Positions 500 through 11,308 of a stretch of 30,135 nucleotides of DNA are shown piece by piece. The notes under the pieces are model-generated. The model did not search any database. It worked only from the letters and a program-made list of their open reading frames with translations, and was not told the DNA's origin. The DNA lies in IMG/VR virus record IMGVR_UViG_3300042350_003018, positions 1 through 30,135 of that record. One strand, given 5' to 3'. Origin of the DNA: a virus. The position numbers were made by a program, and so were the translations under genes. Position 1 is the stretch's first letter. Each line of letters starts with the position of its first letter.

Positions 500-650
500 C
501 AGGGAACTTTTTGTCTATGAGGTAATCATACAGCAACTGAGCGAACCCGTAGTGGGGTCGTATGCCAGTTTCTAAACTGCCACTCGTTGCCACCGTCCAC
601 ATGATGTCTAGGTGATTCTTATCAGGTATCGGTTTCGGGTTCTCCATCAT
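456..650 (-). CDS. Conserved-looking small hypothetical protein
   Basis: A 64-residue protein, MMENPKPIPDKNHLDIMWTV at the start, with an aromatic/acidic C-terminal part containing HYGFAQLLYDYLIDKKFPDD. The second Met (647) may be the real start. It overlaps the upstream 117-residue gene by 29 bp and the downstream zinc-ribbon gene by 44 bp. Its codons 23-30 also carry the palindromic promoter element described at 525-584, and the -10 box of that promoter falls in its LLYDY codons. It resembles a recurrent cyanophage hypothetical family; role unknown. Confidence 0.75.
   Translation of the reverse strand: MMENPKPIPDKNHLDIMWTVATSGSLETGIRPHYGFAQLLYDYLIDKKFPDDYYPRKTSTAEET
525..584 (-). promoter_or_regulatory. 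Composite accessory promoter, copy G
   Basis: The palindromic element lies at 561-584 (minus strand AGTGGCAGTT, TAGA, AACTGGCATA), followed after exactly 30 bp by a -10 box TATGAT at 530-525. There is no good -35 hexamer at the usual distance (CTACGG with a 16-bp spacer). The downstream bases GATTACC match the start region of the promoter at 6321-6379. It would drive the zinc-ribbon gene at 499 and the two genes after it. It lies wholly inside the 456-650 gene. Called from similarity to six other copies. Confidence 0.55.
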
Positions 651-975
651 GGCGCAAATCCTCCATTAGTTCATCAATTGAATAAGTTTCTACTTTACCT
701 AGCTCAATATCTTCTACCATCTGCAGTAGATATTCTAGGAATTCTTTTGGGTAAACATCATCCTCGTTGAGTGATGCCCAGAACCATTCTATACACTCTG
801 TTTCTGGATCTTCTACTGTTCTAGGTAGAGCATAGTGATCATAGTTGAATGTCATTAAGTCAGCCCATATGCGAAATGTCATTCGCATACTCTGCCATCC
901 TGTCATCCAGCAATGACCAATCCAATATTCCCACCAGTTCAGAGTAGTTTTTGTTTTTGCTGTACTGTACGCCAT
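622..975 (-). CDS. Hypothetical protein, acidic C-terminus
   Basis: A 117-residue protein. The N-terminal half is aromatic (LNWWEYWIGHCWMTGWQSMR) and the C-terminal half is strongly acidic and probably helical (EFLEYLLQMVEDIELGKVE). The Trp-rich segment at residues 13-40 could be a membrane-associated helix but carries polar residues, so I do not call it transmembrane. Its ATG at 975 shares a base with the stop of the upstream gene (TGATG junction), which fixes the start. Function not recognised. Confidence 0.75.
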   Translation of the reverse strand: MAYSTAKTKTTLNWWEYWIGHCWMTGWQSMRMTFRIWADLMTFNYDHYALPRTVEDPETECIEWFWASLNEDDVYPKEFLEYLLQMVEDIELGKVETYSIDELMEDLRHDGEPETDT

Positions 976-1274
976 TATCGTGATGTCCCAGGTAGACTAC
1001 TCATCTTCCATGTATAAGAGAAAAGGTCTATGTCAAATCCAAATTTATACACCCAGAACATGAAACTCAGCACACCACTACTACCAGATGTGATCTGCAT
1101 GTATGGCCAACTAGGATAATCAGACCAGGAGAATGACCACTGTAGGAATGATCGTCTCTTGATAGGTACAGGGAAGTGCTTATTGAAATTCAATAGTTGG
1201 AAATACCACGTATCACCAAAGTCTTCTGAGTATGTGTATCTAAACAGATCTAGTTTTGCGCTTGAATAGTTCAT
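975..1274 (-). CDS. Aromatic-rich hypothetical protein
   Basis: A 99-residue protein unusually rich in Trp, Tyr and Phe (for example SFLQWSFSWSDYPSWPYMQ at about residues 42-60 and FMFWVYKFGFDIDLFSYTW at 71-89). A run of this kind may be a membrane-associated or membrane-inserting segment, but charged residues interrupt it. It overlaps the upstream 135-residue gene by 35 bp and is coupled by TGATG to the downstream gene. No family recognised. Confidence 0.7.
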   Translation of the reverse strand: MNYSSAKLDLFRYTYSEDFGDTWYFQLLNFNKHFPVPIKRRSFLQWSFSWSDYPSWPYMQITSGSSGVLSFMFWVYKFGFDIDLFSYTWKMSSLPGTSR

Positions 1275-1647
1275 AGTCCATTACTTTGCCATATTTGAAG
1301 TGTATTATAGCACGGGGCCAGTCTTCCCACTCACCACCCCATGTTGATGTATAGACTTCAACATATTTGGTGATCATGCATGGTTGATATCTACCATGAG
1401 CACCAGTTGGTATCCATTCGTAGTTCAAGAAACCACGTTCGGGATCATACCTAGGATCATCCTGTTTGATAGTCTCAAATATATGAGTACCGACGTAAGT
1501 TGGATACCACAATTGACCAGCAGGATCTAACCAATATGCTGTCATGGTGCCACCAATACCATCCTCAATATCTTTGGTTTGACACTCTACATTTGTGAGT
1601 TCTGGTCCTAGATCATAGGATGATCTAAAGTAATCGAACATGCCCAT
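1240..1647 (-). CDS. Conserved phage hypothetical protein (MGMFDY type)
   Basis: A 135-residue protein starting MGMFDYFRSSYDLGPELTNV, with FQTKD-like ECQTKDIEDGIGG at about 22-34 and a later block IIHFKYGKVMDYELFKRKT. The MGMFDY start followed by a QTKD segment is typical of a small family of unknown function that recurs in phages and bacteria (family knowledge from memory). The fold is probably beta-rich, with the DPAGQLWYP and HFKYG strands. Gap to the upstream gene is only 5 bp. Role unknown. Confidence 0.8.
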   Translation of the reverse strand: MGMFDYFRSSYDLGPELTNVECQTKDIEDGIGGTMTAYWLDPAGQLWYPTYVGTHIFETIKQDDPRYDPERGFLNYEWIPTGAHGRYQPCMITKYVEVYTSTWGGEWEDWPRAIIHFKYGKVMDYELFKRKTRSV

Positions 1648-1652
1648 GATAA

Positions 1653-1925
1653 TTATTCAAATGGTTTGGTTCTACTTACACGCATATCCTGTTGCTGGGG
1701 CGTGTCATATGGCGTGACGCAAGCAACAGAAATTTCCATCGCTTTAGATGCTTTTGCCATCTCACGATACCCAAGTCCAACATACAATTGTCCACCACAT
1801 ACAGCGGCTGCCATAATGCCCCAGAACACATAGTACCAATTCGACTTCACTTGCCCAATTGGTTGACGGAAGGGGCGCTCACGGATGGTCTGTCCCCTGT
1901 CGGGGCTCTCATACACAGTTTTCAT
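1653..1925 (-). CDS. Small single-span membrane protein
   Basis: A 90-residue protein with a polar basic N-terminus (MKTVYESPDRGQTIRERPFR), one likely membrane helix at about residues 29-54 (NWYYVFWGIMAAAVCGGQLY and on), and a polar tail ending TKPFE. The positive residues precede the helix, suggesting an N-in orientation. It overlaps the upstream AbrB-like gene by 17 bp. Function unknown; it would sit in the host membrane during infection. Confidence 0.78.
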   Translation of the reverse strand: MKTVYESPDRGQTIRERPFRQPIGQVKSNWYYVFWGIMAAAVCGGQLYVGLGYREMAKASKAMEISVACVTPYDTPQQQDMRVSRTKPFE

Positions 1926-2124
1926 CGTCTTCTACCTTACGTAGTACAATTTGGTCATCTTCGACAATCCATTCCAACAAGTCATCCTCTTGCCAACCAA
2001 GTTCATCGAGGAAGTCTGCTGGAATAGGCATGAACAAGTCACCATTGTCATCCTCATCGAGTATAACAGTATAGTCTGTATTCTGGATTGTATCGAGTGA
2101 TGTATTTTCGGGCATGGTCTTCAC
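1909..2124 (-). CDS. AbrB/MazE-like small DNA-binding protein (putative)
   Basis: A 71-residue acidic protein. Residues about 17-65 have the pattern of a swapped-hairpin AbrB domain: a beta strand (DYTVILDED), a turn DNGDLFMPIPADFLDELGW with the characteristic 'P-I-P..F/L..LGW' core, then DDLLEWIVEDDQIVLRKV. In bacteria this fold makes dimeric regulators and antitoxins. Here it is unusually acidic for a DNA binder, so it might bind protein or mimic DNA. No toxin partner is visible next to it. An alternative Met at 2115 removes three residues. It overlaps the upstream ORF by about 70 bp. Confidence 0.65.
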   Translation of the reverse strand: MKTMPENTSLDTIQNTDYTVILDEDDNGDLFMPIPADFLDELGWQEDDLLEWIVEDDQIVLRKVEDDENCV

Positions 2125-2491
2125 ATTGGAAATAGCAGGTTTTCTTTTCGCTTGTATCTTCTAGACGATATGGGAACATATCGACATATGGAAAGAGTGC
2201 TAGATCAGAAGAATATACGAGCTCCTGTGACTTCGTATTCTTCGTCTTTCGTGTCGATTTGACTGGTGTTTTCGCTACCTTGCTCGCCTTCTGTGGCGAC
2301 TTCTTGGCGCTGGTTGATGGCGTTTTCGATGATGTCTTCGATGGAGACTTCTTCGTTGTCAGGGTCGTCAGATTCTGCGATAACTTTTTCGCAGTGCGAG
2401 CGGACACACTCGATGAAGTCTTCTTCTGTCCAGTCGTTAAGGATGCTTTCTTTGGGGTCTTCTTTGTCCCAGTCGATCGTGAAGGTGCCAT
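2054..2491 (-). CDS. Lys/Ser/Thr-rich protein overlapping the acidic gene
   Basis: A 145-residue ORF in two parts. Residues 1-90 are very rich in Lys, Ser and Thr, like a histone-H1 tail (for example KKTPKKASLTTGQKKTSSSV). Residues about 95-145 look like a compact domain (DMFPYRLEDTSEKKTCYFQC, then EDHARKYITRYNPEYRLYCY). The C-terminal part lies beyond the stop of the overlapping gene, so it needs a start of its own, and the only in-frame ATG is at 2491. That ATG overlaps the TGA of the 39-residue gene (TGATG). The basic part overlaps the acidic gene 2205-2519 for 287 bp in another frame, and runs of Glu codons tend to read as Lys when shifted, so the basic tail may be a by-product. Confidence 0.5.
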   Translation of the reverse strand: MAPSRSTGTKKTPKKASLTTGQKKTSSSVSARTAKKLSQNLTTLTTKKSPSKTSSKTPSTSAKKSPQKASKVAKTPVKSTRKTKNTKSQELVYSSDLALFPYVDMFPYRLEDTSEKKTCYFQCEDHARKYITRYNPEYRLYCYTR

Positions 2492-2519
2492 CAGTGTTTT
2501 CGATTACGGAGATTGTCAT
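2205..2519 (-). CDS. Acidic small protein
   Basis: A 104-residue protein beginning MTISVIENTDGTFTIDWDKE, then DWTEEDFIECVRSHCEKVI, and a low-complexity acidic tail. The start at 2519 is chosen because residues upstream of it do not look coding in this frame and because the N-terminus fits a recurring cyanophage small-protein type (an MTISV-type start followed by a strand-turn-strand and an acidic helix). It is nested between the 39-residue membrane peptide gene and the Lys-rich ORF, overlapping both. The strong negative charge might mimic DNA or bind a basic partner; this is inference only. Confidence 0.7.
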   Translation of the reverse strand: MTISVIENTDGTFTIDWDKEDPKESILNDWTEEDFIECVRSHCEKVIAESDDPDNEEVSIEDIIENAINQRQEVATEGEQGSENTSQIDTKDEEYEVTGARIFF

Positions 2520-2610
2520 GTTCAATAGTGTCGAGGTGGTTGAACACAGGTGAGTATAATGCAAATAGTGCCCAACCCACAGCTGCTGAAATAATTAGAA
2601 ACTCAAGCAT
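2491..2610 (-). CDS. 39-residue membrane peptide
   Basis: A tiny gene. The protein starts MLEFLIISAAVGWALFALYS, a clear hydrophobic helix at residues 2-20, followed by a polar tail (PVFNHLDTIEHDNLRNRKH). The ATG at 2610 overlaps the end of the upstream gene (its TGA is at 2605-2603), and the TGA at 2493-2491 overlaps the ATG of the Lys-rich ORF. Both junctions support it as a translated unit. It probably inserts in the host inner membrane. Role unknown. Confidence 0.65.
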   Translation of the reverse strand: MLEFLIISAAVGWALFALYSPVFNHLDTIEHDNLRNRKH

Positions 2611-2929
2611 TAATAGTTTCTACTTCTACTAGTGCTTCTTTGATCGCTGTTTTCAGATCACGATGAGGAATGAACACCTCATCAATTTCATCTTTGTATT
2701 CTGGTTTTTCATCCTTGAAGGCATCAGATGTCTGATAAATCAGAGATCGTGTGATATCATTCAGAACTTCAAAGCACGATCCAGGGAGATTAGAGTAGTT
2801 ACCATTCCCCTTGCCATACAGTTCTTCCCTCACCTTATCCAACATAAACTTGTATGTGGTAAGATTATCTTCAAAGATATTGTAATACAGTGTTTCGTCT
2901 TCGGGTGTCTTGAATTTAGGAAAGTTCAT
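2603..2929 (-). CDS. Hypothetical helical protein
   Basis: A 108-residue protein, MNFPKFKTPEDETLYYNIFE at the start, mostly charged and probably alpha-helical, ending KTAIKEALVEVETINA. No catalytic motif or membrane segment is visible. It overlaps the upstream 56-residue gene by 14 bp and is coupled to the downstream membrane peptide gene. Part of the long unit that begins at the 4407-4465 promoter. Not recognised. Confidence 0.75.
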   Translation of the reverse strand: MNFPKFKTPEDETLYYNIFEDNLTTYKFMLDKVREELYGKGNGNYSNLPGSCFEVLNDITRSLIYQTSDAFKDEKPEYKDEIDEVFIPHRDLKTAIKEALVEVETINA

Positions 2930-3086
2930 TTTCGTCAGGGTTCTTGGGATTTGCGAATGTACCGAAGTTGTAAGTGTAGTACAGGAAGTTGTTGATGCTA
3001 CGCTCGATGCCTAGACTTTCTTTGACTGCTAACCAGCTCTCATATTCTAGTTGTATGTCTGGTCCCAATTCAAGCGTCACTTCCAT
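2916..3086 (-). CDS. 56-residue hypothetical protein
   Basis: A short gene starting MEVTLELGPDIQLEYESWLA, then VKESLGIERSINNFLYYTYN and a polar tail ending DENELS. It overlaps the upstream 51-residue gene (stop at 3070) by 17 bp and the downstream 108-residue gene by 14 bp. Continuous tiling with short overlaps between neighbours is the main support. No function can be read from the sequence. Confidence 0.65.
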   Translation of the reverse strand: MEVTLELGPDIQLEYESWLAVKESLGIERSINNFLYYTYNFGTFANPKNPDENELS

Positions 3087-3225
3087 CTGCTTCCCTCTTT
3101 TGTCTGATGTTGTGTAGGATGCTCTCAGCTAGAGCGAAATTGTCGTTGTTGTATGCTGTAATATAATCCAGTATGAGAGACCTGAGATCAGGATCTAATG
3201 GATTGATAGAGTTGTCCGAGTTCAT
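3070..3225 (-). CDS. 51-residue hypothetical protein
   Basis: A short gene starting MNSDNSINPLDPDLRSLILD, followed by YITAYNNDNFALAESILHNI, a probable pair of helices, and a basic/acidic tail. It fills the space between the 74-residue gene (38-bp overlap) and the 56-residue gene (17-bp overlap). Alternating leucines suggest a small helical bundle or a protein-binding helix. Function unknown. Confidence 0.62.
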   Translation of the reverse strand: MNSDNSINPLDPDLRSLILDYITAYNNDNFALAESILHNIRQKREADGSDA

Positions 3226-3412
3226 CAGCGTCATAGAATAACGTAACTTCGTTATCTAGTTGTTCAGGATCCAACCATTCAAAGAACTCGTCAGCAAATG
3301 CCAACGCATCATCAACCCGATCTTCAGTAATCAGTTGCTTAAAGCGAACACATGCCCACTCGTAGATGTCATCACGATACTGGGAAATCCGCAGGCAGTC
3401 TTCGTTGTTCAT
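3188..3412 (-). CDS. 74-residue acidic hypothetical protein
   Basis: Starts MNNEDCLRISQYRDDIYEWA and continues with acidic helices (VDDALAFADEFFEWLDPEQL). Its ATG lies in an ATGA junction with the upstream gene (stop at 3409), so the start is well supported. No motif seen. It is in a run of three genes coupled by 4-bp overlaps (3938 to 3188), which suggests equal expression and possibly joint work, but nothing more specific. Confidence 0.75.
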   Translation of the reverse strand: MNNEDCLRISQYRDDIYEWACVRFKQLITEDRVDDALAFADEFFEWLDPEQLDNEVTLFYDADELGQLYQSIRS

Positions 3413-3663
3413 TTTTTGAAAAGAGTAAGTTTGTTCTGGAGGTGATCGTAAGACTTGAATTCTACATCATGAGGGAGCGACCTGGCAAGGGCGGCGGCGA
3501 ACTCATTAGGAAATTTACTGAATACACGCCAGTACTTGGCGGTTTCCTCATAGGTCAGATCTTGACGAGGAACCACACTGATACTATACTCACCCATCGT
3601 ATAGCGATTGGGGAATGGTTCTACCAGCGTCTGGATGTATTCAACCAGTGGATTGTATTTCAT
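3409..3663 (-). CDS. 84-residue hypothetical protein
   Basis: Starts MKYNPLVEYIQTLVEPFPNR, then a strand GEYSISVVPRQD and a helical part ending NKLTLFKK. It is joined to both neighbours by ATGA overlaps (3660-3663 and 3409-3412). No membrane helix, signal peptide or catalytic motif is visible. Not recognised. Confidence 0.75.
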   Translation of the reverse strand: MKYNPLVEYIQTLVEPFPNRYTMGEYSISVVPRQDLTYEETAKYWRVFSKFPNEFAAALARSLPHDVEFKSYDHLQNKLTLFKK

Positions 3664-3938
3664 TTGATAAAGACCTCCAGGTGCTCTTCAGATAGTTTAG
3701 CGATCTCTTGAAGGTGATAGGCAATGTGAGCTACATACTCACGCTCTTCATCTTCAAGATTGTCCCACGCAATATCATATGATCCTTCCCAATCAATAGT
3801 GCCATCTTCGAGCACAGGAGCACCATAAATGGCATCTTTGGGATGATCGATAGCGTAGGCGTTGTCGTTGGTAACGATGTAATGCATGGCAGAAACGAAC
3901 TCTGTAGGTAATTTAGCAGGACTGAGAGCGGATGTCAA
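3660..3938 (-). CDS. 92-residue acidic hypothetical protein
   Basis: Starts MTSALSPAKLPTEFVSAMHY, has a middle part rich in Asp/Glu and Trp (DGTIDWEGSYDIAWDNLED), and ends in an acidic helix (IAKLSEEHLEVFIK). Gap to the upstream 147-residue gene is 3 bp, and it is coupled by ATGA to the downstream gene. Function unknown. Confidence 0.75.
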   Translation of the reverse strand: MTSALSPAKLPTEFVSAMHYIVTNDNAYAIDHPKDAIYGAPVLEDGTIDWEGSYDIAWDNLEDEEREYVAHIAYHLQEIAKLSEEHLEVFIK

Positions 3939-3941
3939 GCA

Positions 3942-4385
3942 TCAGCGAGCGTAGAGATAACCGCCAGACCAGTCAGCATTCTCCAGCAACCACTCACGAT
4001 CAGCAATCAAGCGCAGATCGTAGCGCACACCTTTAGCAGGTGCCTTCCAGGAAGCGGATTTATACACTTCACCAGTCTTTTTGTCCACGAAAGCATGGAC
4101 AGAGCGGGAGCTACCACCATCAATCATGATGATCTTGTGGTATTTTTTACCGCTCTCGATCACATAATTGATGGGCGAAGTGCCTTGCTTCAGTTTCTCG
4201 ATGCAGGCAGTGTGATACTCAACATTCTCACCCTGCTCAACATAACGCTTGTGTCCACGAATAGCACAATCGTGGTAGTTTTGAACCAGAGCATCACAGA
4301 GCATGTAGCAGTGCTTCAGAACGTTGATCTGAAGAGTGTTGCGGGCAGTCTGCTCAGAAACGAACTGGGCGAAGGTGGTGGTCAT
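3942..4385 (-). CDS. Conserved cyanophage hypothetical protein (147 aa)
   Basis: Starts MTTTFAQFVSEQTARNTLQI. The C-terminal part holds a beta-rich module with SVHAFVDKKTGEVYKSASWK then APAKGVRYDLR, a pattern I associate with a common cyanophage hypothetical family. I chose 4385 and not the longer ORF start at 4481: it follows the -10 box at 4412-4407 at a sensible distance, and the extra upstream codons overlap the end of the 43-residue gene. First gene of a long unit of about 15 small genes. Function unknown. Confidence 0.82.
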   Translation of the reverse strand: MTTTFAQFVSEQTARNTLQINVLKHCYMLCDALVQNYHDCAIRGHKRYVEQGENVEYHTACIEKLKQGTSPINYVIESGKKYHKIIMIDGGSSRSVHAFVDKKTGEVYKSASWKAPAKGVRYDLRLIADREWLLENADWSGGYLYAR

Positions 4386-4406
4386 GTGTCTCTCGCTGAT
4401 GTAATC

Positions 4407-4465
4407 AGTATAGGGCAGATCAGAGCAGTTCCAATGCCTCCTGTGACAGCTCTTCAACTGGCACA
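4407..4465 (-). promoter_or_regulatory. Composite accessory promoter, copy F
   Basis: This copy has the most complete palindrome: minus strand TGTGCCAGTT, GAAG, AGCTGTCACA at 4465-4442. After 29 bp comes the -10 box TATACT (4412-4407). A -35-like TTGGAA lies at 4434-4429 with a 16-bp spacer. Around the start region the plus strand reads CTGAT-GTA-ATCAG, a short inverted repeat. It drives the gene at 4385. The palindrome lies in the coding sequence of the 43-residue gene, encoding VPVEEL. Confidence 0.7.
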
Positions 4466-4551
4466 TCGCTGTCCCAGTCATGCTCAGAAAGGTCTAGATC
4501 ATATGCATCGATCTGATCCAGGATGTAACGGTCAAGCAAAACTTCTTCCAT
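4420..4551 (-). CDS. 43-residue acidic peptide
   Basis: Starts MEEVLLDRYILDQIDAYDLD and ends with SQEALELL; strongly acidic and leucine-rich, so probably helical. It begins 3 bp after the stop of the RlpA-like gene and ends inside the -35/-10 region of the promoter for the next unit. Codons 30-36 contain the palindromic promoter element. Support comes from the open frame, position and composition; there is no family match. Confidence 0.6.
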   Translation of the reverse strand: MEEVLLDRYILDQIDAYDLDLSEHDWDSDVPVEELSQEALELL

Positions 4552-4553
4552 AA

Positions 4554-4859
4554 TTAACCAATAACTCGATAACAAACGGTAGCGTTACCCTTACGGGCAG
4601 ATTGAATGTGAGAGAAAGCAGAGTAAGATAAATCTAAATCTGCGTGAGAATATGGCCCACGGTCGTTGATACGAACAATGACCTGCTTGCCATTATCTTG
4701 GTTGGTCACCCTGATTTTACTACCCATAGGTAGATAAGGATGAGCTGCAGTCCAACGATAAGCATCAAACCGTTCACCATTAGCGGTTTTTTGTCCATGG
4801 AAACCATCTCCTACTCCATAAAATGTGGCAATACCACACATCAAACCAGCAATAATCAT
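4554..4859 (-). CDS. RlpA-like double-psi beta-barrel protein, putative lytic transglycosylase
   Basis: A 101-residue protein that is almost only the RlpA barrel: GIATFYG (9-15), KTANGERFDAYRWTAAHPYL (24-43), GSKIRVTNQDNGKQVIVRIN (46-65), then DRGPY and DLDLSYSAF. RlpA enzymes cleave peptidoglycan strands lacking stem peptides. Glu29, Asp32 and His40 keep the spacing (3, then 8) of the catalytic Glu/Asp/His of Pseudomonas RlpA, so it may be active. The N-terminus is a short hydrophobic stretch (MIIAGLMCG), too short for a classical signal peptide, and a stop lies just upstream in frame, so no longer start exists. It is coupled by ATGA to a 51-residue gene with a signal peptide. Possible roles are lysis help or envelope remodelling. 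Confidence 0.85.
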   Translation of the reverse strand: MIIAGLMCGIATFYGVGDGFHGQKTANGERFDAYRWTAAHPYLPMGSKIRVTNQDNGKQVIVRINDRGPYSHADLDLSYSAFSHIQSARKGNATVCYRVIG

Positions 4860-5011
4860 TTGGTCTTAGCAAAAATACAATCAGGGTGTCCTTTGGGTAG
4901 TTCAGCACAAGCTTTATCGTATGCTTCAAACATGTTCTGATCTCTCTTAGCGAGAGCAACATTATACATCAGAATGCTGATAGCAATAAGAAAGATGTAA
5001 GAGATTTTCAT
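4856..5011 (-). CDS. 51-residue secreted protein
   Basis: Starts MKISYIFLIAISILMYNVAL with a Lys, a hydrophobic core and a probable signal peptidase site after ALA (residue 21). The mature part of about 30 residues (KRDQNMFEAYDKACAELPKG and on) has two cysteines (35 and 45) that could form a disulfide in the periplasm. It is joined by ATGA overlaps to both the 68-residue gene and the RlpA-like gene. The pairing suggests a shared envelope role, which is inference. Confidence 0.75.
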   Translation of the reverse strand: MKISYIFLIAISILMYNVALAKRDQNMFEAYDKACAELPKGHPDCIFAKTK

Positions 5012-5214
5012 TTGATGTGACCTTCAGCAATCTGGTTGACAACGTTACGGGCAGACTTCATGAATTGAAAGGGAGTATAAAGTCCCATGTCTACACCATC
5101 AAGAACATCAGAACCATTGTAAGTGTTGACAATCAACAGGCAAGCATCATAGAGAGCAGCAAGGTGCTCTTCTTTAGATTGAAATTGCATGGCGTTGTAA
5201 GAAGGAAGTGTCAT
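5008..5214 (-). CDS. 68-residue hypothetical protein
   Basis: Starts MTLPSYNAMQFQSKEEHLAA, then LYDACLLIVNTYNGSDV and a helix ending NQIAEGHIK. Appears soluble and helical. ATGA junction with the downstream secreted-protein gene; 14-bp gap to the upstream 40-residue gene. Not recognised. Confidence 0.75.
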   Translation of the reverse strand: MTLPSYNAMQFQSKEEHLAALYDACLLIVNTYNGSDVLDGVDMGLYTPFQFMKSARNVVNQIAEGHIK

Positions 5215-5228
5215 GATCAGTTAGTAAG

Positions 5229-5351
5229 TCAGGAGTTCCAATAAACATCATACTCTTCTTCAGACATGGCAAATACTTTCGCCATCTCTTCACGGTCTTC
5301 GTCAGAGATATCGAAGATCTCGCCAGGCATGTCTTGGATTTCATCCCACAT
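5229..5351 (-). CDS. 40-residue acidic peptide
   Basis: Starts MWDEIQDMPGEIFDISDEDR and ends EEYDVYWNS; very acidic. It is the first gene after the promoter at 5380-5438, with a leader of roughly 20 bases. Position right behind a strong promoter supports it as a real gene. It could act as a small inhibitor or DNA mimic, but nothing in the sequence proves this. Confidence 0.65.
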   Translation of the reverse strand: MWDEIQDMPGEIFDISDEDREEMAKVFAMSEEEYDVYWNS

Positions 5352-5379
5352 GGGGTGGTGCTCCGTTGATTACCTTGTA

Positions 5380-5438
5380 ATTATAGGGTCAATCCAGCTC
5401 GCTCAAGGCGCTCTGTAGACAGTTCCACAACTGGCACT
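5380..5438 (-). promoter_or_regulatory. Composite accessory promoter, copy E
   Basis: The element at 5438-5414 reads AGTGCCAGTT, GTGG, AACTGTCTACA on the minus strand (one inserted base in the right half). After 28 bp comes a perfect -10 box TATAAT (5385-5380); TTGAGC (5406-5401) is a possible -35 with a short 15-bp spacer. The palindrome GATTAC-CTT-GTAATT (5368-5382) covers the -10 and probable start site. It drives the gene at 5351. Confidence 0.7.
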
Positions 5439-5583
5439 GAACTGCCACATCATCCACGCCATGATGCTTTGCTGTCTTGCGACTGTCACGGGGATCGTGT
5501 CCCCAGAGCAGATCGATCAGAAACTTGATCTGCTGGGTGTCCAGGGTCACGTTGGTGACCACAGAGGGGCAAGGATAGGTCAT
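5389..5583 (-). CDS. 64-residue hypothetical protein
   Basis: Starts MTYPCPSVVTNVTLDTQQIK, followed by FLIDLLWGHDPRDSRKT, a segment I associate with a recurrent cyanophage small protein, and a Cys/Leu-rich C-terminus. Its last codons carry the palindromic promoter element (encoding QCQLWNCLQ, a different frame from the copies in Dam and the 43-residue gene). Last gene of the unit that starts at 6321-6379. Function unknown. Confidence 0.75.
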   Translation of the reverse strand: MTYPCPSVVTNVTLDTQQIKFLIDLLWGHDPRDSRKTAKHHGVDDVAVQCQLWNCLQSALSELD

Positions 5584-5604
5584 AGGGGTCAGAGGGGGGT
5601 TACA

Positions 5605-5620
5605 GGCGCTCCTAGGCGCC
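5605..5620 (-). other. GC-rich stem-loop between genes
   Basis: GGCGC (5605-5609) and GCGCC (5616-5620) pair around a 6-base loop, immediately after the stop of the 93-residue gene. There is no T-tract, so it is not a clear intrinsic terminator. It could stabilise the upstream mRNA end or affect translation of the next gene. Confidence 0.45.
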
Positions 5621-5902: not shown

Positions 5903-6083
5903 CTTTCTTCATATGCTCACGGACACACCCGACGAATTGTTGCCATTCTTTTTCTGAGAAGTTGTCAGAAGCATAAGGGATGCCAACAACAGCAGCACAA
6001 TGGCGACGGATATTTTCTGGAGCAACATAAGGATCTTGAAGAGCGGTGACAGTAGCGAGAAAAATGCTAAACATCAGCAGCAC
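5895..6083 (-). CDS. Small exported protein (62 aa)
   Basis: Starts MLLMFSIFLATVTALQDPYV: a hydrophobic core with a probable signal peptidase site near TALQ (residues 13-16), though there is no Lys or Arg before the core. The mature part has two cysteines (RRHCAAVVGIPYASDNF and FVGCVREHMKK) likely to form a disulfide. It overlaps the neighbours by 10 and 8 bp. Similar short exported proteins recur in cyanophages. Likely periplasmic; role unknown. Confidence 0.72.
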   Translation of the reverse strand: MLLMFSIFLATVTALQDPYVAPENIRRHCAAVVGIPYASDNFSEKEWQQFVGCVREHMKKDA

Positions 6084-6295
6084 ACCATCATTTTGATACG
6101 GGGAGAAGTGTTAAACTTGGTCACTTGATAACCATACTGATTGATACGCTCATCTGCTTGGCGCTCCATATCACGCTTGCTGATCAAACGCTCGCTCATC
6201 TCCGCACCATCAAACGAGGTAACTTGAACAAACTTATCGGTCATACCAGCAGCAGGGTAAAAATCAACCTGCATGGCGCCTTGGACAAGTTGCAT
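6074..6295 (-). CDS. 73-residue hypothetical protein
   Basis: Starts MQLVQGAMQVDFYPAAGMTD; the middle is basic and helical (RLISKRDMERQADERINQYG) and the end is FNTSPRIKMMVCC. First gene behind the promoter at 6321-6379. An internal Met (MQVDFYP) at 6274 is an alternative start. Not recognised. Confidence 0.75.
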   Translation of the reverse strand: MQLVQGAMQVDFYPAAGMTDKFVQVTSFDGAEMSERLISKRDMERQADERINQYGYQVTKFNTSPRIKMMVCC

Positions 6296-6320
6296 GGGTG
6301 TGTCTCTCGATTACCTTGTA

Positions 6321-6379
6321 ATCATACAGCGTCCAGGTGCTGGGTCACGGTGGGGTGTGCCAGTTCCTCAACTGGATAG
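6321..6379 (-). promoter_or_regulatory. Composite accessory promoter, copy D
   Basis: The element at 6379-6356 reads CTATCCAGTT, GAGG, AACTGGCACA on the minus strand; 29 bp later is the -10 box TATGAT (6326-6321), with GTGACC (6348-6343) as a weak -35 at 16 bp. A perfect palindrome GATTAC-CTT-GTAATC (6309-6323) covers the -10 edge and probable start. The whole promoter lies in the last 20 codons of the methyltransferase gene; its stop codon is part of the -10 box. Confidence 0.7.
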
Positions 6380-7167
6380 TTTGTGATGTAAAGGTGCTGA
6401 ACTTTGGCATTAGAATGATTTTTGTTCTTCCCAAATCGTTGGGAGTATACGAAGTCTTTGGTCATGATATTATAGTCTTTATAACTGTCACGATAGAACT
6501 CATGATCAGAGTGAATTATCAACCACTTAGCAGATGTTGTCTTGAGACAACTCAAGAGCTTCTCATGTAGACTTGAACCACCATCTCCAGTAGTATAACC
6601 AAGACGATCTAGGTAAGGTGGATCAATGAAAATAAAGTCATTCTCATTGGCATCTTCAAAGCAGTGCTCAAATGAAGCATGAGAGATCTTACATTTCAAA
6701 AGAAAGTCATGGTGATCCTTCGAGAGATTACAAGAGAATGATTTGTAATGTCCAAATGGTACATTGAACTCCCCATTTGCATTATACCTTTCCATACCAG
6801 AGAAACACAACTGCCGCACGACAATGTACGAGAGTGCTCTCCGCAGAGGATCTACACAATCCCACGGTTGATTGATTGCTTCTCTAGCTGAATAAAACTC
6901 TATCTCAAGATCATCATGCTCTAGAGTTTTGATGATATCAACTTTTTCTTGAAGTTCCTGATACTGATCCGATGCCACAACCTGATAGAGATTGATAATA
7001 TCTCGGTTGACATCACTCAGAATAGACTGTCTCTGATAGTGAAATGCTACAGCAGCACCACCACAAAATGGTTCAATAATCTTTCCAGTAAAAGAAGGCA
7101 GCAAACCCGTGATCGTTTTGATCTCACGGGATTTGCCACCTTGATACTTAACAATAGGTTTAACCAT
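6322..7167 (-). CDS. dam: DNA adenine methyltransferase (D12/Dam class)
   Basis: A 281-residue N6-adenine methyltransferase of the alpha (D12) class. Seen in order: VKYQGGKSREI (residues 6-16, first AdoMet-site motif), EPFCGGAAVAF (32-42, motif I binding AdoMet), and DPPY (182-185, catalytic motif IV). Length fits the family. Start chosen at 7167 (MVKPIVKYQGGK), which overlaps the endonuclease stop by 8 bp; the longer ORF from 7245 adds residues with no family character. Relatives methylate GATC or similar sites; the exact site cannot be read here. Next to an endonuclease gene it could be the protecting half of a restriction-modification pair, or it may shield phage DNA from host enzymes. Confidence 0.93.
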   Translation of the reverse strand: MVKPIVKYQGGKSREIKTITGLLPSFTGKIIEPFCGGAAVAFHYQRQSILSDVNRDIINLYQVVASDQYQELQEKVDIIKTLEHDDLEIEFYSAREAINQPWDCVDPLRRALSYIVVRQLCFSGMERYNANGEFNVPFGHYKSFSCNLSKDHHDFLLKCKISHASFEHCFEDANENDFIFIDPPYLDRLGYTTGDGGSSLHEKLLSCLKTTSAKWLIIHSDHEFYRDSYKDYNIMTKDFVYSQRFGKNKNHSNAKVQHLYITNYPVEELAHPTVTQHLDAV

Positions 7168-7735
7168 AACGCTTTTCCGCAAGAATAGGACCAACAACTT
7201 CACGCATAAACGTGAAGTATTCTTCAATGGTAAATGGGCAGTCAATCATCTTCATCATATCAGAGACACCAATGATCTTCATGCCTTTGTTGGTATATTT
7301 TACCTGCCACTTATGTGGCACAGCATCCACCACAGGGCAGAAATATGCTCCAGTAGCGTCCTCCATGGTCGCCAAAACTGCTTTGATCTTAGCGTTAGAT
7401 GCTTTGTCCTTCTCACTGTCAAAGTTGAGATTGCACTTGCTCTCAAGGTAGAGTTTGTATACGTTCTCACCGACTCTATACTTAAACAGATGATCAAGTT
7501 GGCGCTCATCTTTACCAACCATGATCATGTTGTTCTCTGCAATCAAATTTTCAGCGTTCTTTGCATCGCTGATAACTTGGTTCCAAAACTCTTCAATCTT
7601 ATTACCAAACTGAATTCGGATGCTCTGAACGCTATTCTCAGGTTCCCACCCAAGGCAGGCATCGATATAACTCTCTACCTTTGTGGGGTTGATGGAGAGA
7701 ATGAGGGGAAGCAGATGACGCTCTAAGTAAGACAT
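7160..7735 (-). CDS. Putative type II-like restriction endonuclease (PD-(D/E)XK)
   Basis: A 191-residue protein directly upstream of, and overlapping, the Dam-type methyltransferase gene. A PD-(D/E)XK-like core is visible: KIEEFW (46-51), Asp81 in RQLDHLF, then Glu98-Ser-Lys100 in KLYLESKCNLNFDSEKDK, with hydrophobic strands around each. The ESKCNLNFDSEK segment, with KxNLNxDxEK character, resembles several type II restriction enzymes. Length is short to normal for that group. Role expected: cleave unmethylated DNA, for example host DNA, while phage DNA is protected by the neighbour. Nuclease assignment is fairly good; recognition site unknown. Confidence 0.75.
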   Translation of the reverse strand: MSYLERHLLPLILSINPTKVESYIDACLGWEPENSVQSIRIQFGNKIEEFWNQVISDAKNAENLIAENNMIMVGKDERQLDHLFKYRVGENVYKLYLESKCNLNFDSEKDKASNAKIKAVLATMEDATGAYFCPVVDAVPHKWQVKYTNKGMKIIGVSDMMKMIDCPFTIEEYFTFMREVVGPILAEKRYG

Positions 7736-7757
7736 GTGTTTGATTGATTACCTTGTT

Positions 7758-7817
7758 ATTATGCCATAAAAAAAGAGGTCTGGTCAAGACCTCTGTGACA
7801 CTTATTCAACTGTCCCC
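7758..7817 (-). promoter_or_regulatory. Composite accessory promoter, copy C (endonuclease-methyltransferase)
   Basis: The element at 7817-7794 reads GGGGACAGTT, GAAT, AAGTGTCACA on the minus strand. After 30 bp comes the -10 CATAAT (7763-7758); TTGACC (7787-7782) is a good -35 with an 18-bp spacer and sits in the loop of the terminator. The palindrome GATTAC-CTT-GTTATT (7746-7760) overlaps the -10. It drives the endonuclease and methyltransferase genes. Confidence 0.7.
7768..7794 (-). terminator. Intrinsic terminator embedded in promoter C
   Basis: On the minus strand AGAGGTC and GACCTCT pair over 7 bp with a 7-base loop, followed by seven T residues (7774-7768). It ends the unit of the helicase and following small genes. 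The stem and loop occupy the -35 region of the promoter for the next unit. Confidence 0.85.
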
Positions 7818-7857
7818 AAAAACTGGGTGAATTTCAGTTTTAGCATGTTCTGTCATG

Positions 7858-8127
7858 TTAACATGCTGCTCCCACAAGATCGCATCCTCTAGATTGTAGA
7901 AAATAGCTTGTTGTTTCGCCTTCTTGTTCTTCTTTTGTTTGATCCACACAACAGCGTACTTCATTCCAATGCTCACGAAAAACTAGTAAATTTGCCTGAT
8001 ACCTACCATTATGCTTGGTTTTATCAGGAATGTCAAGAAAACAGACTGTGATGTATCCATCATCAATAAAGCTGATCCAACCGTGTGTCCCACGGTACTC
8101 TACCAGCATACCGTATTCGAATTTCAT
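7858..8127 (-). CDS. Hypothetical beta-rich protein (89 aa)
   Basis: Starts MKFEYGMLVEYRGTHGWISF, IDDGYITVCFLDIPDKTKHN: short strands and turns resembling a small SH3-like barrel. Relatives in cyanophages usually have such an N-terminal module. The C-terminus (KEEQEGETTSYFLQ and on) is polar and then Cys-containing. Coupled by ATGA to the upstream coiled-coil gene; followed by 63 bp and then a terminator. Function unknown. Confidence 0.75.
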   Translation of the reverse strand: MKFEYGMLVEYRGTHGWISFIDDGYITVCFLDIPDKTKHNGRYQANLLVFREHWNEVRCCVDQTKEEQEGETTSYFLQSRGCDLVGAAC

Positions 8128-8333
8128 GCGTCTGGTGCGTCGATGACTTCGAATGGTTCTCTATTTTGATTTTCTAGTTTAGGCAACCTAAACAATTGTT
8201 TTAGATCATTCAAGTCATCTAATTGACGTTGCAACTCATCAACCTGTAGTTGGAGTGCCTGAAAATTATACTGGTTGTTAGTTTGAATTTCTAGCAAATT
8301 CTCAACCACTTGTTTCAAATCATCTTCAGTCAT
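8124..8333 (-). CDS. Coiled-coil small protein
   Basis: A 69-residue protein starting MTEDDLKQVVENLLEIQTNN. Residues about 5-50 have a heptad pattern of Leu/Val (LQLQVDELQRQLDDLNDLKQ), so it likely forms a coiled-coil oligomer. The tail (LENQNREPFEVIDAPDA) is acidic and flexible. It overlaps both neighbours (8 bp upstream, 4 bp downstream). Partner unknown. Confidence 0.75.
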   Translation of the reverse strand: MTEDDLKQVVENLLEIQTNNQYNFQALQLQVDELQRQLDDLNDLKQLFRLPKLENQNREPFEVIDAPDA

Positions 8334-8475
8334 AATGGCTCAGTTGTCGTGACAGTTCTACATCAATACCAATCAGCTTAGAATACAAAAACTTCTCGTA
8401 TTCGTTACCTTTCAGCAGTTCAACGAGGTTATTTATTTGCATCTTAGCAAGGATCAGTTTAGTTTTATCGTCCAT
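8326..8475 (-). CDS. 49-residue hypothetical protein
   Basis: Starts MDDKTKLILAKMQINNLVEL, then LKGNEYEKFLYSKLIGIDVE, ending SRQLSHYD; helical and amphipathic. The ATG at 8475 shares a base with the upstream stop (TGATG), and its TGA lies 2 bp past the next ATG, so both ends fit a coupled chain. The codons for VELSR contain a half copy of the promoter element (AACTGTCACG) but no matching -10 follows. Role unknown. Confidence 0.7.
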   Translation of the reverse strand: MDDKTKLILAKMQINNLVELLKGNEYEKFLYSKLIGIDVELSRQLSHYD

Positions 8476-8780
8476 CAGTAGGAAGGTTCACCAGGAATGT
8501 CATTTTGTTCTTTTTCGTCCCTGGGTTTGCCATGGACCAGCAGCAGGGCACCCTCAGCTTTCTCAGCGAAGGTTTTATGATAAGTGTTCATTTCCACGAT
8601 GATGTCACGCAAATCGTTATAGAATTCAAGGATAGATGTGCTAGCATCATCCAGATAGTCATGCACAGCGTCAGTCAGACGATCCTTACGCTGCTCACGG
8701 TAACGTGCTTCCCAATCTTCATCGATGTTGGGGCGTCCTTCAACAGTCATAGTAAATTCGTAGGGGGTTTGGAGTTTCAT
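8475..8780 (-). CDS. Hypothetical helical protein (101 aa)
   Basis: Starts MKLQTPYEFTMTVEGRPNID; the middle is charged and helical (DEDWEARYREQRKDRLTDAV, then DYLDDASTSILEFYNDLRDI). I chose 8780 over the longer ORF start at 8975 because the extra 65 codons are a shadow of the helicase gene and 8780 lies 10 bp after the helicase stop. It follows the helicase in the same unit, so it may act with it, but no motif shows how. Confidence 0.78.
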   Translation of the reverse strand: MKLQTPYEFTMTVEGRPNIDEDWEARYREQRKDRLTDAVHDYLDDASTSILEFYNDLRDIIVEMNTYHKTFAEKAEGALLLVHGKPRDEKEQNDIPGEPSY

Positions 8781-8790
8781 TTTAGCACAA

Positions 8791-10035
8791 TCATTCAGTA
8801 GGGGCAATACCTTTGACAAAGATGGCATCCACAACACGCTGCAGTCGCTTCTCAGTCTGCTGACCGTAGTTACTAAACACAGGAACAGTAACGAAACCAG
8901 TAGATTTGCGATACAGACTGAGCTGACCAGCAGGGATCTTACCAGACTGAATATCAGCGGCATCCTGCTTGTCAAGACGGATCACACGACCGATGGTTTG
9001 CGCCATCTCGATCACAGGCAGGTTACGCAGCAGAATACAATGGGTCAGACCAGGAACGTTGATACCCTCAGACAGGATGCTGTAGTGGAACATGATGAAC
9101 TTACGGCTGGGATCTTTACCCCAGAGGTCAAGAGTGTCAAAGAATTCTTGACGACCAACTTTCTGCTTGTTGATGTAAGCACCGTGCTTGCTGGTGATGT
9201 GGAGCACATCATAACCACGAGCAGCAAACTCTGCCATCACGTTGGTGTTAGAGAGCAAACGCCACAGCACACGAGTGTTAGGAGCAGCAACCAGGATCTT
9301 CTGGGCACTATCCTCATCGAGTTGCGATACGATGTCAAGCAACACCTCACGGTCATTCTCTGCAGCAAGCAGAGACTTGTTACGCTCAATATCGACAAGG
9401 TGAGACTTGATGGTAGGAGGAATGATACTACCGTTAGCTACCAGTTCAGGAGCAGGAATGTTGATCAGTTCCTTACCATACACATCGGTATTGTGCATAC
9501 TGATGTTGCCACCACGATACTTGGGGGTAGCAGTAAAGTAGTATGCGTTACGAGCAGTCAGACTAGCAGCAGCAACTTCCATGTAAAAGTCACGACGCAC
9601 AGAGTTGTGTGCCTCATCATAATAGATCAGGTCAACATCAATACCTGCCTCGTTGATACGACGCAGAGAGTTGTAAGTGGTAAAGATAATCTGGTGAGAA
9701 TTGGCAGCTTTGCAGATGCTATCGTGAATAACAATCTCACGAACTTTGGTGGTGTGGTGGCAATCAACCTCACCGCTGTGAACGTGAAGCACAGTAGCAT
9801 CAACTTTGCCGTTCAGTTCAGACCAGAACTCTTCATACAGTTGAACTGCCAGCAGGATGCGAGGAGCGCACACTACAACGGTCTGAGGGGTCTGTGCTGC
9901 CTGAAGGCGACGCAGACAGTCAAGGATCATCACGAGGGTCTTGCCGCCGCCCGTAGGGCAGGTGACACGACCGATACCAGCAGTCAGCAGGGCATCGAGC
10001 ATACGCTGCTGGTGGGGGCGGAGGGTCAGGGTCAT
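8791..10035 (-). CDS. Superfamily 2 DEAH-type DNA/RNA helicase
   Basis: A 414-residue two-domain helicase of the ResIII/RAD25-like type. Motifs in order: Q-like RPHQQRML (6-13); Walker A CPTGGGKT (26-33); motif Ia CAPRILLAVQL (56-66); DEAH in IYYDEAHNS (137-145); motif III TATP (168-171); SEGINVPG (322-329, motif V) and QTIGRVIRLDK (346-356, motif VI with the arginine finger). It should use ATP to translocate on or unwind nucleic acid. Start at 10035 chosen because the family begins right before the Q-like motif; the extra 71 codons of the longer ORF read through the promoter and terminator. It lacks extra domains seen in UvsW-type proteins, so I do not name it uvsW. Locally higher GC than the structural genes. 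Confidence 0.93.
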   Translation of the reverse strand: MTLTLRPHQQRMLDALLTAGIGRVTCPTGGGKTLVMILDCLRRLQAAQTPQTVVVCAPRILLAVQLYEEFWSELNGKVDATVLHVHSGEVDCHHTTKVREIVIHDSICKAANSHQIIFTTYNSLRRINEAGIDVDLIYYDEAHNSVRRDFYMEVAAASLTARNAYYFTATPKYRGGNISMHNTDVYGKELINIPAPELVANGSIIPPTIKSHLVDIERNKSLLAAENDREVLLDIVSQLDEDSAQKILVAAPNTRVLWRLLSNTNVMAEFAARGYDVLHITSKHGAYINKQKVGRQEFFDTLDLWGKDPSRKFIMFHYSILSEGINVPGLTHCILLRNLPVIEMAQTIGRVIRLDKQDAADIQSGKIPAGQLSLYRKSTGFVTVPVFSNYGQQTEKRLQRVVDAIFVKGIAPTE

Positions 10036-10057
10036 GCGGTTCGCTGTTGATGAAATA

Positions 10058-10117
10058 AGTATAGGGCATGAAAAAGGGGGCACAGAGCCCCCTTGTGACA
10101 GTTTTTGAAGTGGATCA
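10058..10117 (-). promoter_or_regulatory. Composite accessory promoter, copy B (helicase unit)
   Basis: The element at 10117-10094 reads TGATCCACTT, CAAA, AACTGTCACA on the minus strand (right half conserved, left half weak). After 30 bp comes the -10 TATACT (10063-10058). The -35 position is weak (CTGTGC) and lies in the terminator stem. The bases around the -10 match copy F closely. It drives the helicase gene at 10035. Confidence 0.65.
10071..10092 (-). terminator. Intrinsic terminator embedded in promoter B
   Basis: On the minus strand GGGGGC and GCCCCC pair over 6 bp with a 5-base loop, followed by TTTTT (10075-10071). It lies just after the ParB-like gene stop and ends that one-gene unit. 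Its T-tract runs into the spacer just upstream of the -10 of the next promoter. Confidence 0.88.
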
Positions 10118-11197
10118 GAAAGAAACCCTGATCGCTTCTTCTTCACCTTCAATCTGGGGGATCCAGTAGAGTTCCAAAGGAAGAGAATTAACATCGACCT
10201 TAGGAAGTTTGAAGCTAAAGAGAGAACCAACATTAAGCATACCCTCAACTTTGGAGATATACCAGTTGATAGTGCTATTCAAAATGTCGTTAATAGCATC
10301 GACAATTTCTTGACGCTCAGCCTCAATCTCATGTTCACAAGTTGCTTTACTAGCGCAACTAACACGGACAGTTTCACCCGCCAAAACAGCTTCAAATGCC
10401 CACTTCAGAATATCGTTAGCATAACGATATGTGAAACTGTTATCAAGAACTTTATGGCGAGTACGGGCACCATCAACACTAGAGTAGTTGTTCTCACCAA
10501 ACAACTCGTTTTTCTCGTACCAATCTTTGATCTCAACCTTCGAAGTGTTAAACACTCGCTGAGAAGGTTTCTCGTTGCTGAGGATTTTGTTACGAATGGT
10601 GCCGATAGTAGATTTATGCCCCTTTAAAGGGAAGTGCTCATAGATACCAGACACAGAAAACAACTTTTCTAGATTTTTCTTGGTGCGGGGGATACCTTCA
10701 TCCTCCATAACACGAGAGAGAATCAGAAAATCTGCACTAGAACAGTTTTGAGGGTTGCCACCGTCAGTAGCATTCACAAAAATACCGCTCAAAGTCATAA
10801 CTGAACTGTCAGAAAGACTATCAAGCAAAGCGTCACCAGTAACCTTACGACGATAACGAGCCACGGGTGCAGTACGCCAATCATTCTCCTTCAAAGCAAG
10901 AAGAAGGTGGCGGTGATCGAATTGCTCTTCTTTATCTTCAGAGATAAAGACACTAATAGGCCAAGCACGAGAGAGCCAACGGTAACCAGAAGTAGAGGCA
11001 ACAAGACCATCAAGTTTGTTTTGGATTACCTCAGACTTACGAGGATAGTTTGCTTCTGTGGGGGTGATCTCACCAACCTGACGAACAGCAAAATCTACAT
11101 ATTCTAGAAGAGGATACGAAGGTCCATCTTCTGGGTCAATCTCAAGATACGAGAGGTTGAAATCTTGCGATTGATCGACTACAACTTTCTTAAACAT
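10115..11197 (-). CDS. ParB-like domain protein (putative), own transcription unit
   Basis: A 360-residue protein starting MFKKVVVDQSQDFNLSYLEI. At about residues 78-113 is a stretch like the ParB/sulfiredoxin N-terminal fold: WPISVFISEDKEEQFDHRHL then LLALKENDWRTAPVARYRR, where ParB proteins have a nucleotide-binding 'D-G-H-R-h' and 'A...G......V.V'. Here the motif is DHRH. The rest is helical with no family I recognise. The start is uncertain: an upstream ATG at 11233 adds 12 residues (MLSIPHNYFQKI); both are downstream of a strong promoter and neither has a clear ribosome site. It stands alone between promoter A and a terminator. Could be a DNA-binding or nucleotidyl-type enzyme. Function unproven. 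Confidence 0.6.
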   Translation of the reverse strand: MFKKVVVDQSQDFNLSYLEIDPEDGPSYPLLEYVDFAVRQVGEITPTEANYPRKSEVIQNKLDGLVASTSGYRWLSRAWPISVFISEDKEEQFDHRHLLLALKENDWRTAPVARYRRKVTGDALLDSLSDSSVMTLSGIFVNATDGGNPQNCSSADFLILSRVMEDEGIPRTKKNLEKLFSVSGIYEHFPLKGHKSTIGTIRNKILSNEKPSQRVFNTSKVEIKDWYEKNELFGENNYSSVDGARTRHKVLDNSFTYRYANDILKWAFEAVLAGETVRVSCASKATCEHEIEAERQEIVDAINDILNSTINWYISKVEGMLNVGSLFSFKLPKVDVNSLPLELYWIPQIEGEEEAIRVSF

Positions 11198-11250
11198 AAT
11201 TTTTTGGAAGTAATTGTGCGGTATGCTCAACATCGTTGAGGCATGAGAGT

Positions 11251-11308
11251 AATATAACAGAGATTTTTGGGTCTGTCAACCCCCTGTGACAGTTTCCTCA
11301 TCGTCCAC
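11251..11308 (-). promoter_or_regulatory. Composite accessory promoter, copy A (near-consensus sigma-70)
   Basis: TTGACA (11279-11274), a 17-bp spacer and TATATT (11256-11251) form a near-perfect sigma-70 promoter. Upstream, 28 bp before the -10, is the right half of the palindromic element, AACTGTCACA (11294-11285 on the minus strand is AACTGTCACA); the left half is degraded. The -35 overlaps the stop codon of the 82-residue gene. It drives the ParB-like gene, with transcript start near 11244. Confidence 0.8.

Follow-up and report, generated by a model that had tools for sequence, protein, structure and literature searches.

A composite palindrome promoter repeated in T4-like cyanophages and its likeness to the Yfr2 promoters of cyanobacteria

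Introduction

Why is one upstream palindrome repeated in front of small accessory genes of a cyanophage, and whose regulator would read it? The question is raised by a virus record of 30,135 bases (IMG/VR record IMGVR_UViG_3300042350_003018; this whole stretch is called the window below), which is probably a fragment of a T4-like cyanophage, its placement in Kyanoviridae being judged from its relatives. At seven places on the minus strand a 10+4+10 palindrome lies upstream of a TATAAT-like -10 box, an arrangement that a first-pass annotation had taken for a possible site of a host or phage regulator defining an accessory-gene regulon. Here we report that the palindrome, when trained on phage genomes, also detects the promoters of the cyanobacterial small RNA (sRNA) Yfr2, which is the new element of this work. 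Our reading, drawn from sequence, is that the window sites are probably activator-type promoters of the sigma-70 type, with weak -35 boxes, that depend on the host regulator PlmA.

In T4, early and middle (MotA) promoters form temporal classes that are served by the host polymerase together with an extra upstream determinant, and the MotA box lies near -30, where it replaces the -35 box. According to a 2010 review, cyanomyoviruses lack homologues of motA and asi, and early and middle transcription in T4-like cyanophages, which takes place without Alt, ModA and MotA, was called unclear (PMC2984593).

A composite promoter in the window and in T4-like cyanophages

The element was described by a two-block model made of the 24-bp palindrome and of the -10 box plus 12 nt, with a free gap of 22-37 between the blocks and with AACTGTCACA and TATAAT as seeds. 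Training was confined to P-SSM2, S-SSM7, S-PM2, P-SSM4 and S-RSM4, with the window held out, and at a site threshold of at least 22 bits the model found, after overlapping matches had been merged, seven places in the window. These are exactly the seven reported in the first-pass annotation, all on the minus strand and with palindromes and -10 boxes where it had put them. Before merging there were 10 such matches, against a mean of 0.02 and a maximum of 2 in 200 dinucleotide shuffles, and the reversed window string gave 0. One further place, below the threshold, scored 19.8 bits (29445, + strand), and the palindrome consensus with at most three mismatches occurred 4 times in the window where 0.01 were expected. 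Nothing of 22 bits or more lies past 11308, in keeping with the earlier remark that no copy precedes the structural genes.

Two details of that description needed amending. Six of its gaps were right, while the gap at 5385 is 29 and not 28, so that the series reads 30, 29, 29, 29, 30, 30, 28. The palindrome is present at all seven places, but the individual copies are imperfect, with 4-8 of 10 arm positions complementary (4 at 11285, where the left arm is almost missing, 6 at 10094, 7 at 7794, 6 at 6356, 6 at 5415, 8 at 4442 and 7 at 561).

The annotation had also called for a search of related cyanophages, and all 11 T4-like cyanophage genomes examined proved to carry the element, at 4-23 sites each and mostly with a gap of 28-31. 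Merged sites of at least 22 bits number 22 in S-PM2, 23 in P-SSM2, 20 in S-SSM7, 20 in P-SSM4 and 16 in S-RSM4, all used for training, and 17 in S-WAM2, 19 in S-H9-1, 11 in Syn9, 18 in S-MbCM7, 14 in P-HM1 and 4 in S-SM2, which were not. A model trained on all 12 sequences gave 470 matches (unmerged, both strands counted) at a false-discovery rate of 15% taken from one shuffle, and 435 of these had a gap of 28-31 where 22-37 was allowed. In IMG/VR the exact composite was present in at least 120 stretches and the reversed pattern in 0, and among the matches listed the gap was 28-30 in 118 of 122 (16-31 allowed). No site of at least 22 bits was found in the 160,000 of 168,903 bases of T4 that were searched, or in the 140,000 bases searched of Pelagibacter phage HTVC008M, which has three at 18 bits or more; the T7-like cyanophage P-SSP7, searched with a strict pattern only, gave no match.

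The conclusion that the element is absent in Syn9, reached with strict patterns (a one-mismatch core; AACTGTCACA or CTGTCACA plus a -10 box) that gave one degenerate site or none, was dropped because the trained model found degenerate but clear copies there. S-SM2 (NC_015279) is exceptional: it has 4 sites, where each of the other ten cyanophage genomes has 11-23, and this exception could be useful in finding the regulator's partner or a replacement system.

Within the phage genomes the sites are clustered, the largest cluster holding 12 of 17 in S-WAM2, 11 of 18 in S-MbCM7, 7 of 11 in Syn9, 18 of 23 in P-SSM2, 17 of 20 in S-SSM7, 12 of 22 in S-PM2 and 10 of 20 in P-SSM4. In the first three of these phages it coincides, by annotation, with the run of small genes around the helicase, a region that in Syn9 lies at 43-54 kb. 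When the Syn9 plus strand was read at 20 bits or more, 12 of its 13 sites stood before or at non-structural genes, with gp32 (the single-stranded DNA-binding protein), small hypothetical genes, the helicase gp75, the peptidase gp150, cobS and gp183 among them; none of the 13 precedes an annotated virion gene, and the thirteenth, within nrdA, is probably false. At gp61, gp73, gp150 and gp183 the predicted transcript start comes 4-36 nt downstream of the annotated gene start, with an ATG another 15-18 nt on, which means that one of the two starts, annotated or predicted, is off.

Such a series could arise by chance, or from coding constraint where the sites run into the 3' ends of the genes upstream. 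In Syn9 the centre of the palindrome falls within the annotated upstream gene at 9 of the 13 sites, mostly near the gene end, and open reading frames (ORFs) read through sites 2 and 4 of the window. This explanation predicts equal frequencies in reversed or shuffled genomes, which were tested and did not show them, and it also has the held-out test, the fixed spacing and the conservation at helicase promoters despite varied upstream sequence against it; we give it next to no credence.

Anatomy of the phage sites

Over the 191 sites of at least 22 bits, the left half of the palindrome accounts for 8.9 bits and the right half for 11.1, and the four middle bases are nearly uninformative. Both halves are therefore conserved, and the idea that only the right half matters, which came from the helicase promoters, was dropped. 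The commonest -10 boxes are TATAAT (76) and TATACT (31), while the -35 position is weak: among gap-29 sites 32 of 109 have TTG at a spacer of 16-17 bp, and among gap-30 sites 9 of 37 have it at 17 bp. If transcription starts 7 nt after the -10 box, the palindrome is centred at about -53, within the interval of roughly -40 to -65 that the first-pass annotation had assigned to a regulator site, and its suggestion of activator-dependent promoters fits both the weak -35 position and the spacing, mostly 28-31. The first ATG lies 13-22 nt past the predicted start at 110 of the 191 sites (58%), compared with 14% of random positions; the other 81 may include false matches.

The spacers between palindrome and -10 box often fold. 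A minimum free energy (MFE) of -6 kcal/mol or lower was reached by 67 of 191, 26 of which also have a T run, and the mean was -5.5 against -3.8 in shuffles. The helicase promoters were collected from 60 related loci, 57 with upstream sequence (48 distinct) and 3 without. All 57 carry [AG]A[CG]TG[GT]CACA, which is exactly AACTGTCACA in 44, with a gap of only 29 or 30, and in 51 of them, by a simple test for a C run plus a T run, palindrome and -10 box are separated by a terminator-like hairpin and its T run. In the 21 of 57 hairpins that were aligned, four G-C pairs are the same throughout, two more vary and are broken in some members, and 113 of 126 cells pair; since invariant pairs are neutral on covariation, none is claimed. 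The hairpin likely stops upstream transcripts just before the new start.

These hairpins invite the view that the conserved unit is a terminator with its upstream sequence, which insulates gene units, and that the promoter is incidental. Their frequency in the spacers and the C run followed by a T run at most helicase promoters agree with it. However, 124 of the 191 sites miss the MFE cut-off and yet retain palindrome and spacing, the palindrome also occurs in Yfr2 promoters, and at five helicase promoters (L169, L170, L171, L185 and L187) the hairpin is gone, as judged by eye, while the distance from palindrome to -10 box is kept. We regard this view as very improbable.

The palindrome in Yfr2 promoters

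Allowing at most one mismatch, we found TGTGMCASTT-N4-AASTGKCACA at 24 places, spread over 21 of 386 cyanobacterial genomes; the reversed control was in 0 of 386. We scanned 12 host loci with Rfam, ten chosen by eye because what followed the palindrome looked like an sRNA, plus two others. Cyano-1, the Rfam family of Yfr2 (RF01701), was found in all ten, 40 nt after the palindrome in nine and 49 nt after it in L344; L356 has a second copy, and the same scan found none in L336 and L338. Overall, Yfr2 lies 38-49 nt beyond the palindrome at 11 of the 24 host places, nine of them identified by the Rfam scan and two (G067 and G142, both at 38 nt) by coordinates.

The converse comparison was made with Yfr2 promoters collected by Rfam match, the palindrome being ignored, and the phage-trained palindrome was scored in each against 1000 shuffles. 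One cyanobacterial family, that of genome G148, supplied 41 promoters (40 distinct); its genomes measure 1.0-3.9 Mb, and we take it to be the family of the marine picocyanobacteria. Of these promoters 30 reached p<=0.05 where about 2 were expected, and 19 reached p<=0.01; in 29 of the 30 the palindrome is 34-40 nt upstream of the RNA. A set of 45 distinct Yfr2 promoters, which overlaps the first, gave 21 at p<=0.01 and 28 at p<=0.05; of its 25 best-hit promoters from other cyanobacteria 13 were at p<=0.05, 11 of these with the palindrome 38-41 nt before the RNA. The strong half in the small-genome family is the distal one, often TGTGACAGTT or TAGGACAGTT.

Yfr2 promoters thus have the same imperfect palindrome as the phage sites, on the same side and at nearly the same distance from the RNA start. 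They differ in that the host copies are few and stand before an sRNA family, whereas the phage copies are many and stand before protein-coding units.

Two further host observations were made. A palindrome of the TGTACCAGTTTTGCAAGTGGCACA type is common to four cyanobacterial genomes (L351-L354); it lies just past the 3' end of a 606-aa ORF in L351, L353 and L354, and 136-167 nt before a related ORF of 93-96 aa in L351 and L352, the smaller ORF being another candidate target for the same regulator. On a Mojavia pulchra contig (L194), two perfect, longer palindromes with the same core (3110 and 5194) lie 2 kb apart with similar sequence downstream.

A host regulator as the candidate

One study reports that yfr2 promoters are bound, at a motif called CGRE1, by a host GntR regulator, PMM1637, and holds Yfr2 induction to be mediated by it (PMC6778093). 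Two reviews treat this cyanobacterial factor as PlmA, a binding partner of the PII-PipX complex that thioredoxin reduces (PMC6243067, PMC7344720). We found the GntR domain (PF00392) in 0 of 14 phage records (the 11 cyanophages, T4, HTVC008M and the window), and each of 6 cyanobacterial genomes, of which five belong to the small-genome family, has exactly one; the one host gene inspected encodes 328 aa, with a GntR-type domain at the N terminus. Because the same palindrome stands in a similar place before Yfr2, and because no GntR gene was found in the phages, we favour a host regulator, which narrows the earlier proposal of a host or phage factor acting on an accessory-gene regulon.

In the mechanism that we propose, a dimeric regulator would bind the 24-bp imperfect palindrome centred near -53 and, once bound, would aid the host RNA polymerase at a good -10 box that has a poor -35, and transcription would begin about 15-20 nt ahead of the leading gene in a small accessory unit. 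The regulator would most likely be the host's GntR-family PlmA (PMM1637), acting on Yfr2 at a similarly built promoter. PlmA binding at the phage sites, activation and a role in early expression are what we infer. The wider claim, that T4-like cyanophages in general (at least 11 genomes and more than 100 environmental contigs) each keep 4-23 accessory or early promoters under host PlmA, is tentative, with the odds slightly against it.

Several results weigh against the proposed mechanism. The exact composite with TATAAT (gap 24-34) occurs in none of 84,980 bacterial and archaeal genomes, and a form with a looser -10 box occurs in 11 bacterial or archaeal stretches, of which six are cyanobacterial, including two Yfr2 promoters (L200 and L203), and five are not. 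CGRE1 is said to occur nowhere else in MED4 (PMC6778093), and its presumed identity with our palindrome rests on position in the yfr2 promoters. At 13 of the 24 host palindromes no Yfr2 was seen alongside, G160, G256, G266, G289 and G371 not having been searched, and p<=0.05 was missed by 11 of the 41 small-genome Yfr2 promoters and by 12 of the 25 others. The proximal half is weak in the small-genome hosts, weaker than in phage sites, and at some host sites (L361, L393, L403, L434 and L439) the halves appear by eye to be oppositely arranged. On the phage side, two of the 4 sites in S-SM2 have doubtful -10 boxes, and the left half is in register at just 12 of the 57 helicase promoters; the full palindrome is therefore not needed everywhere.

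A phage-encoded activator, a DNA-binding protein made early or delivered with the virion, might bind the palindrome instead, the likeness to Yfr2 being convergence or a shared site. Phage factors commonly drive phage regulons, the palindrome is present in 4-23 copies per phage and rare in hosts, and several of the small proteins that all 10 site-rich phages conserve had no Pfam match. Besides the lack of a GntR-type gene in the 14 phage records, this explanation has to contend with a host match that covers the distance to the RNA as well as the letters, and with a partial Pfam scan of ten small phage proteins (eight of the 15 families shared by all ten site-rich phages but lacking in T4 and HTVC008M, plus two others), in which the only DNA-binding family was a late-transcription coactivator. 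When S-SSM7 ORFs were used as queries for a phage regulator missing in S-SM2, seven families were present in at least 8 of the 10 and none in all 10, with no clear candidate. A phage activator is, in our judgement, unlikely.

Still less likely is that PlmA binds the phage promoters but represses or modulates them, as a host brake. Many GntR factors repress, and the direction of an effect is not readable from sequence; but an upstream site near -53, together with weak -35 boxes, fits activation, 4-23 copies kept per phage would be unexpected for a host brake, and the Yfr2 effect ascribed to PMM1637 is an induction. Operators of the CRP, LexA, NtcA, Pho, Rex and TrpR types were set aside on half-site or spacing.

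Relation to known systems

Activation by host PlmA would not repeat the T4 scheme, as the cyanophage site is centred near -53 and does not have the MotA placement. Pho boxes read by PhoB provide a case of cyanophages using a host transcription factor, at a direct-repeat site and for few genes; a host factor is used there, but both the factor and the type of site differ from the palindrome promoters. The abstract of Doron et al. 2016 (ISME J) reportedly speaks of a 'novel regulatory element' of early genes in cyanophage Syn9. Syn9 carries the composite of the window and fits that element, the likeness being one of description, with identity unproved. The Syn9 paper or the PMM1637 paper may already mention such a phage motif. 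In our literature search, which left subscription papers largely outside and drew on parts of papers, we recognised none that describes the phage motif or links cyanophages to PlmA or CGRE1. The window promoters are accordingly counted as new members of a class of which parts may have been described before.

What the comparison offers is a promoter code common to the cyanophages examined, together with a named host candidate, PlmA. If the reading is true, the phage reads the metabolic state of its host (nitrogen and carbon through PII-PipX, redox through thioredoxin) when switching on accessory genes, and its promoters may compete with Yfr2 for a scarce factor. The prediction is that host nitrogen, light or redox state tunes accessory-gene expression in the phage through one palindrome. 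The PlmA regulon is still to be defined according to the reviews of 2018 and 2020 (PMC6243067, PMC7344720), and the phage sites supply candidate targets.

Gene context in the window

The nearest annotated relatives of the window are the Synechococcus phages S-WAM2, S-H9-1 and S-MbCM7/ACG-2014h, with matches that cover 11-15% of the first 12 kb. The left 11 kb hold small accessory genes, a D12-class adenine methylase and a DEAD/ResIII helicase, followed by a 2-oxoglutarate (2OG) oxygenase at about 12 kb, and the long ORFs of the right part are taken as tail or virion genes from the positions of their counterparts in relatives. The parts of the seven promoters are given in Table 1. At six of them the leader to the gene start measures 15-22 nt; at site 7 an ATG coincides with the predicted start and the 372-aa ORF begins 11 nt further.

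Table 1. Parts of the seven predicted composite promoters and the genes that follow them (scores from the held-out model).
Feature	Position	Strand	Details
Site 1 palindrome AGTGGCAGTT-TAGA-AACTGGCATA	561..584	-	28.6 bits
Site 1 -10 box TATGAT, gap 30	525..530	-	predicted start 518; ATG 499 of 91-aa ORF (224-499)
Site 2 palindrome TGTGCCAGTT-GAAG-AGCTGTCACA	4442..4465	-	40.7 bits, top score in window
Site 2 -10 box TATACT, gap 29	4407..4412	-	ATG 4385 of 147-aa DUF7717 protein (3942-4385)
Site 3 palindrome AGTGCCAGTT-GTGG-AACTGTCTAC	5415..5438	-	30.5 bits
Site 3 -10 box TATAAT, gap 29	5380..5385	-	ATG 5351, 40-aa ORF
Site 4 palindrome CTATCCAGTT-GAGG-AACTGGCACA	6356..6379	-	28.4 bits
Site 4 -10 box TATGAT, gap 29	6321..6326	-	ATG 6295 of 73-aa phrog_500 protein (6074-6295)
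Site 5 palindrome GGGGACAGTT-GAAT-AAGTGTCACA	7794..7817	-	35.9 bits
Site 5 terminator-like hairpin and T run, between palindrome and -10 box	7768..7793	-	read from sequence
Site 5 -10 box CATAAT, gap 30	7758..7763	-	ATG 7735 of 191-aa phrog_26553 protein (7160-7735)
D12-class adenine methylase, downstream of the phrog_26553 protein at site 5	6322-7185	-	
Site 6 palindrome TGATCCACTT-CAAA-AACTGTCACA	10094..10117	-	35.0 bits
Site 6 terminator-like hairpin AGGGGGCTCTGTGCCCCCTTTTT, between palindrome and -10 box	10071..10093	-	read from sequence
Site 6 -10 box TATACT, gap 30	10058..10063	-	ATG 10035 of DEAD/ResIII helicase (8791-10035)
Site 7 right half AACTGTCACA perfect, left half GTGGACGATG degenerate	11285..11308	-	23.1 bits
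Site 7 -10 box TATATT, gap 28; TTGACA -35 at 17-bp spacer	11251..11256	-	372-aa ORF (10115-11233) downstream

Three of the seven promoters also have the start-region sequence ACAAGGTAATC in common, just 3' of the -10 box (5368-5378, 6309-6319 and 7746-7756, minus strand), and AAGGTARTC leaders like it were seen again in S-WAM2, S-H9-1, S-RSM4 and S-PM2.

Among the neighbouring genes, a 101-aa protein (4554-4859, minus strand) matches phrog_7930 (lipoprotein precursor), and we take it to resemble an RlpA-type double-psi barrel. The phrog_26553 protein lies directly before the D12-class adenine methylase and overlaps it, both behind a single promoter (6322-7735, minus strand), and the pair could form a modification or restriction-like unit.

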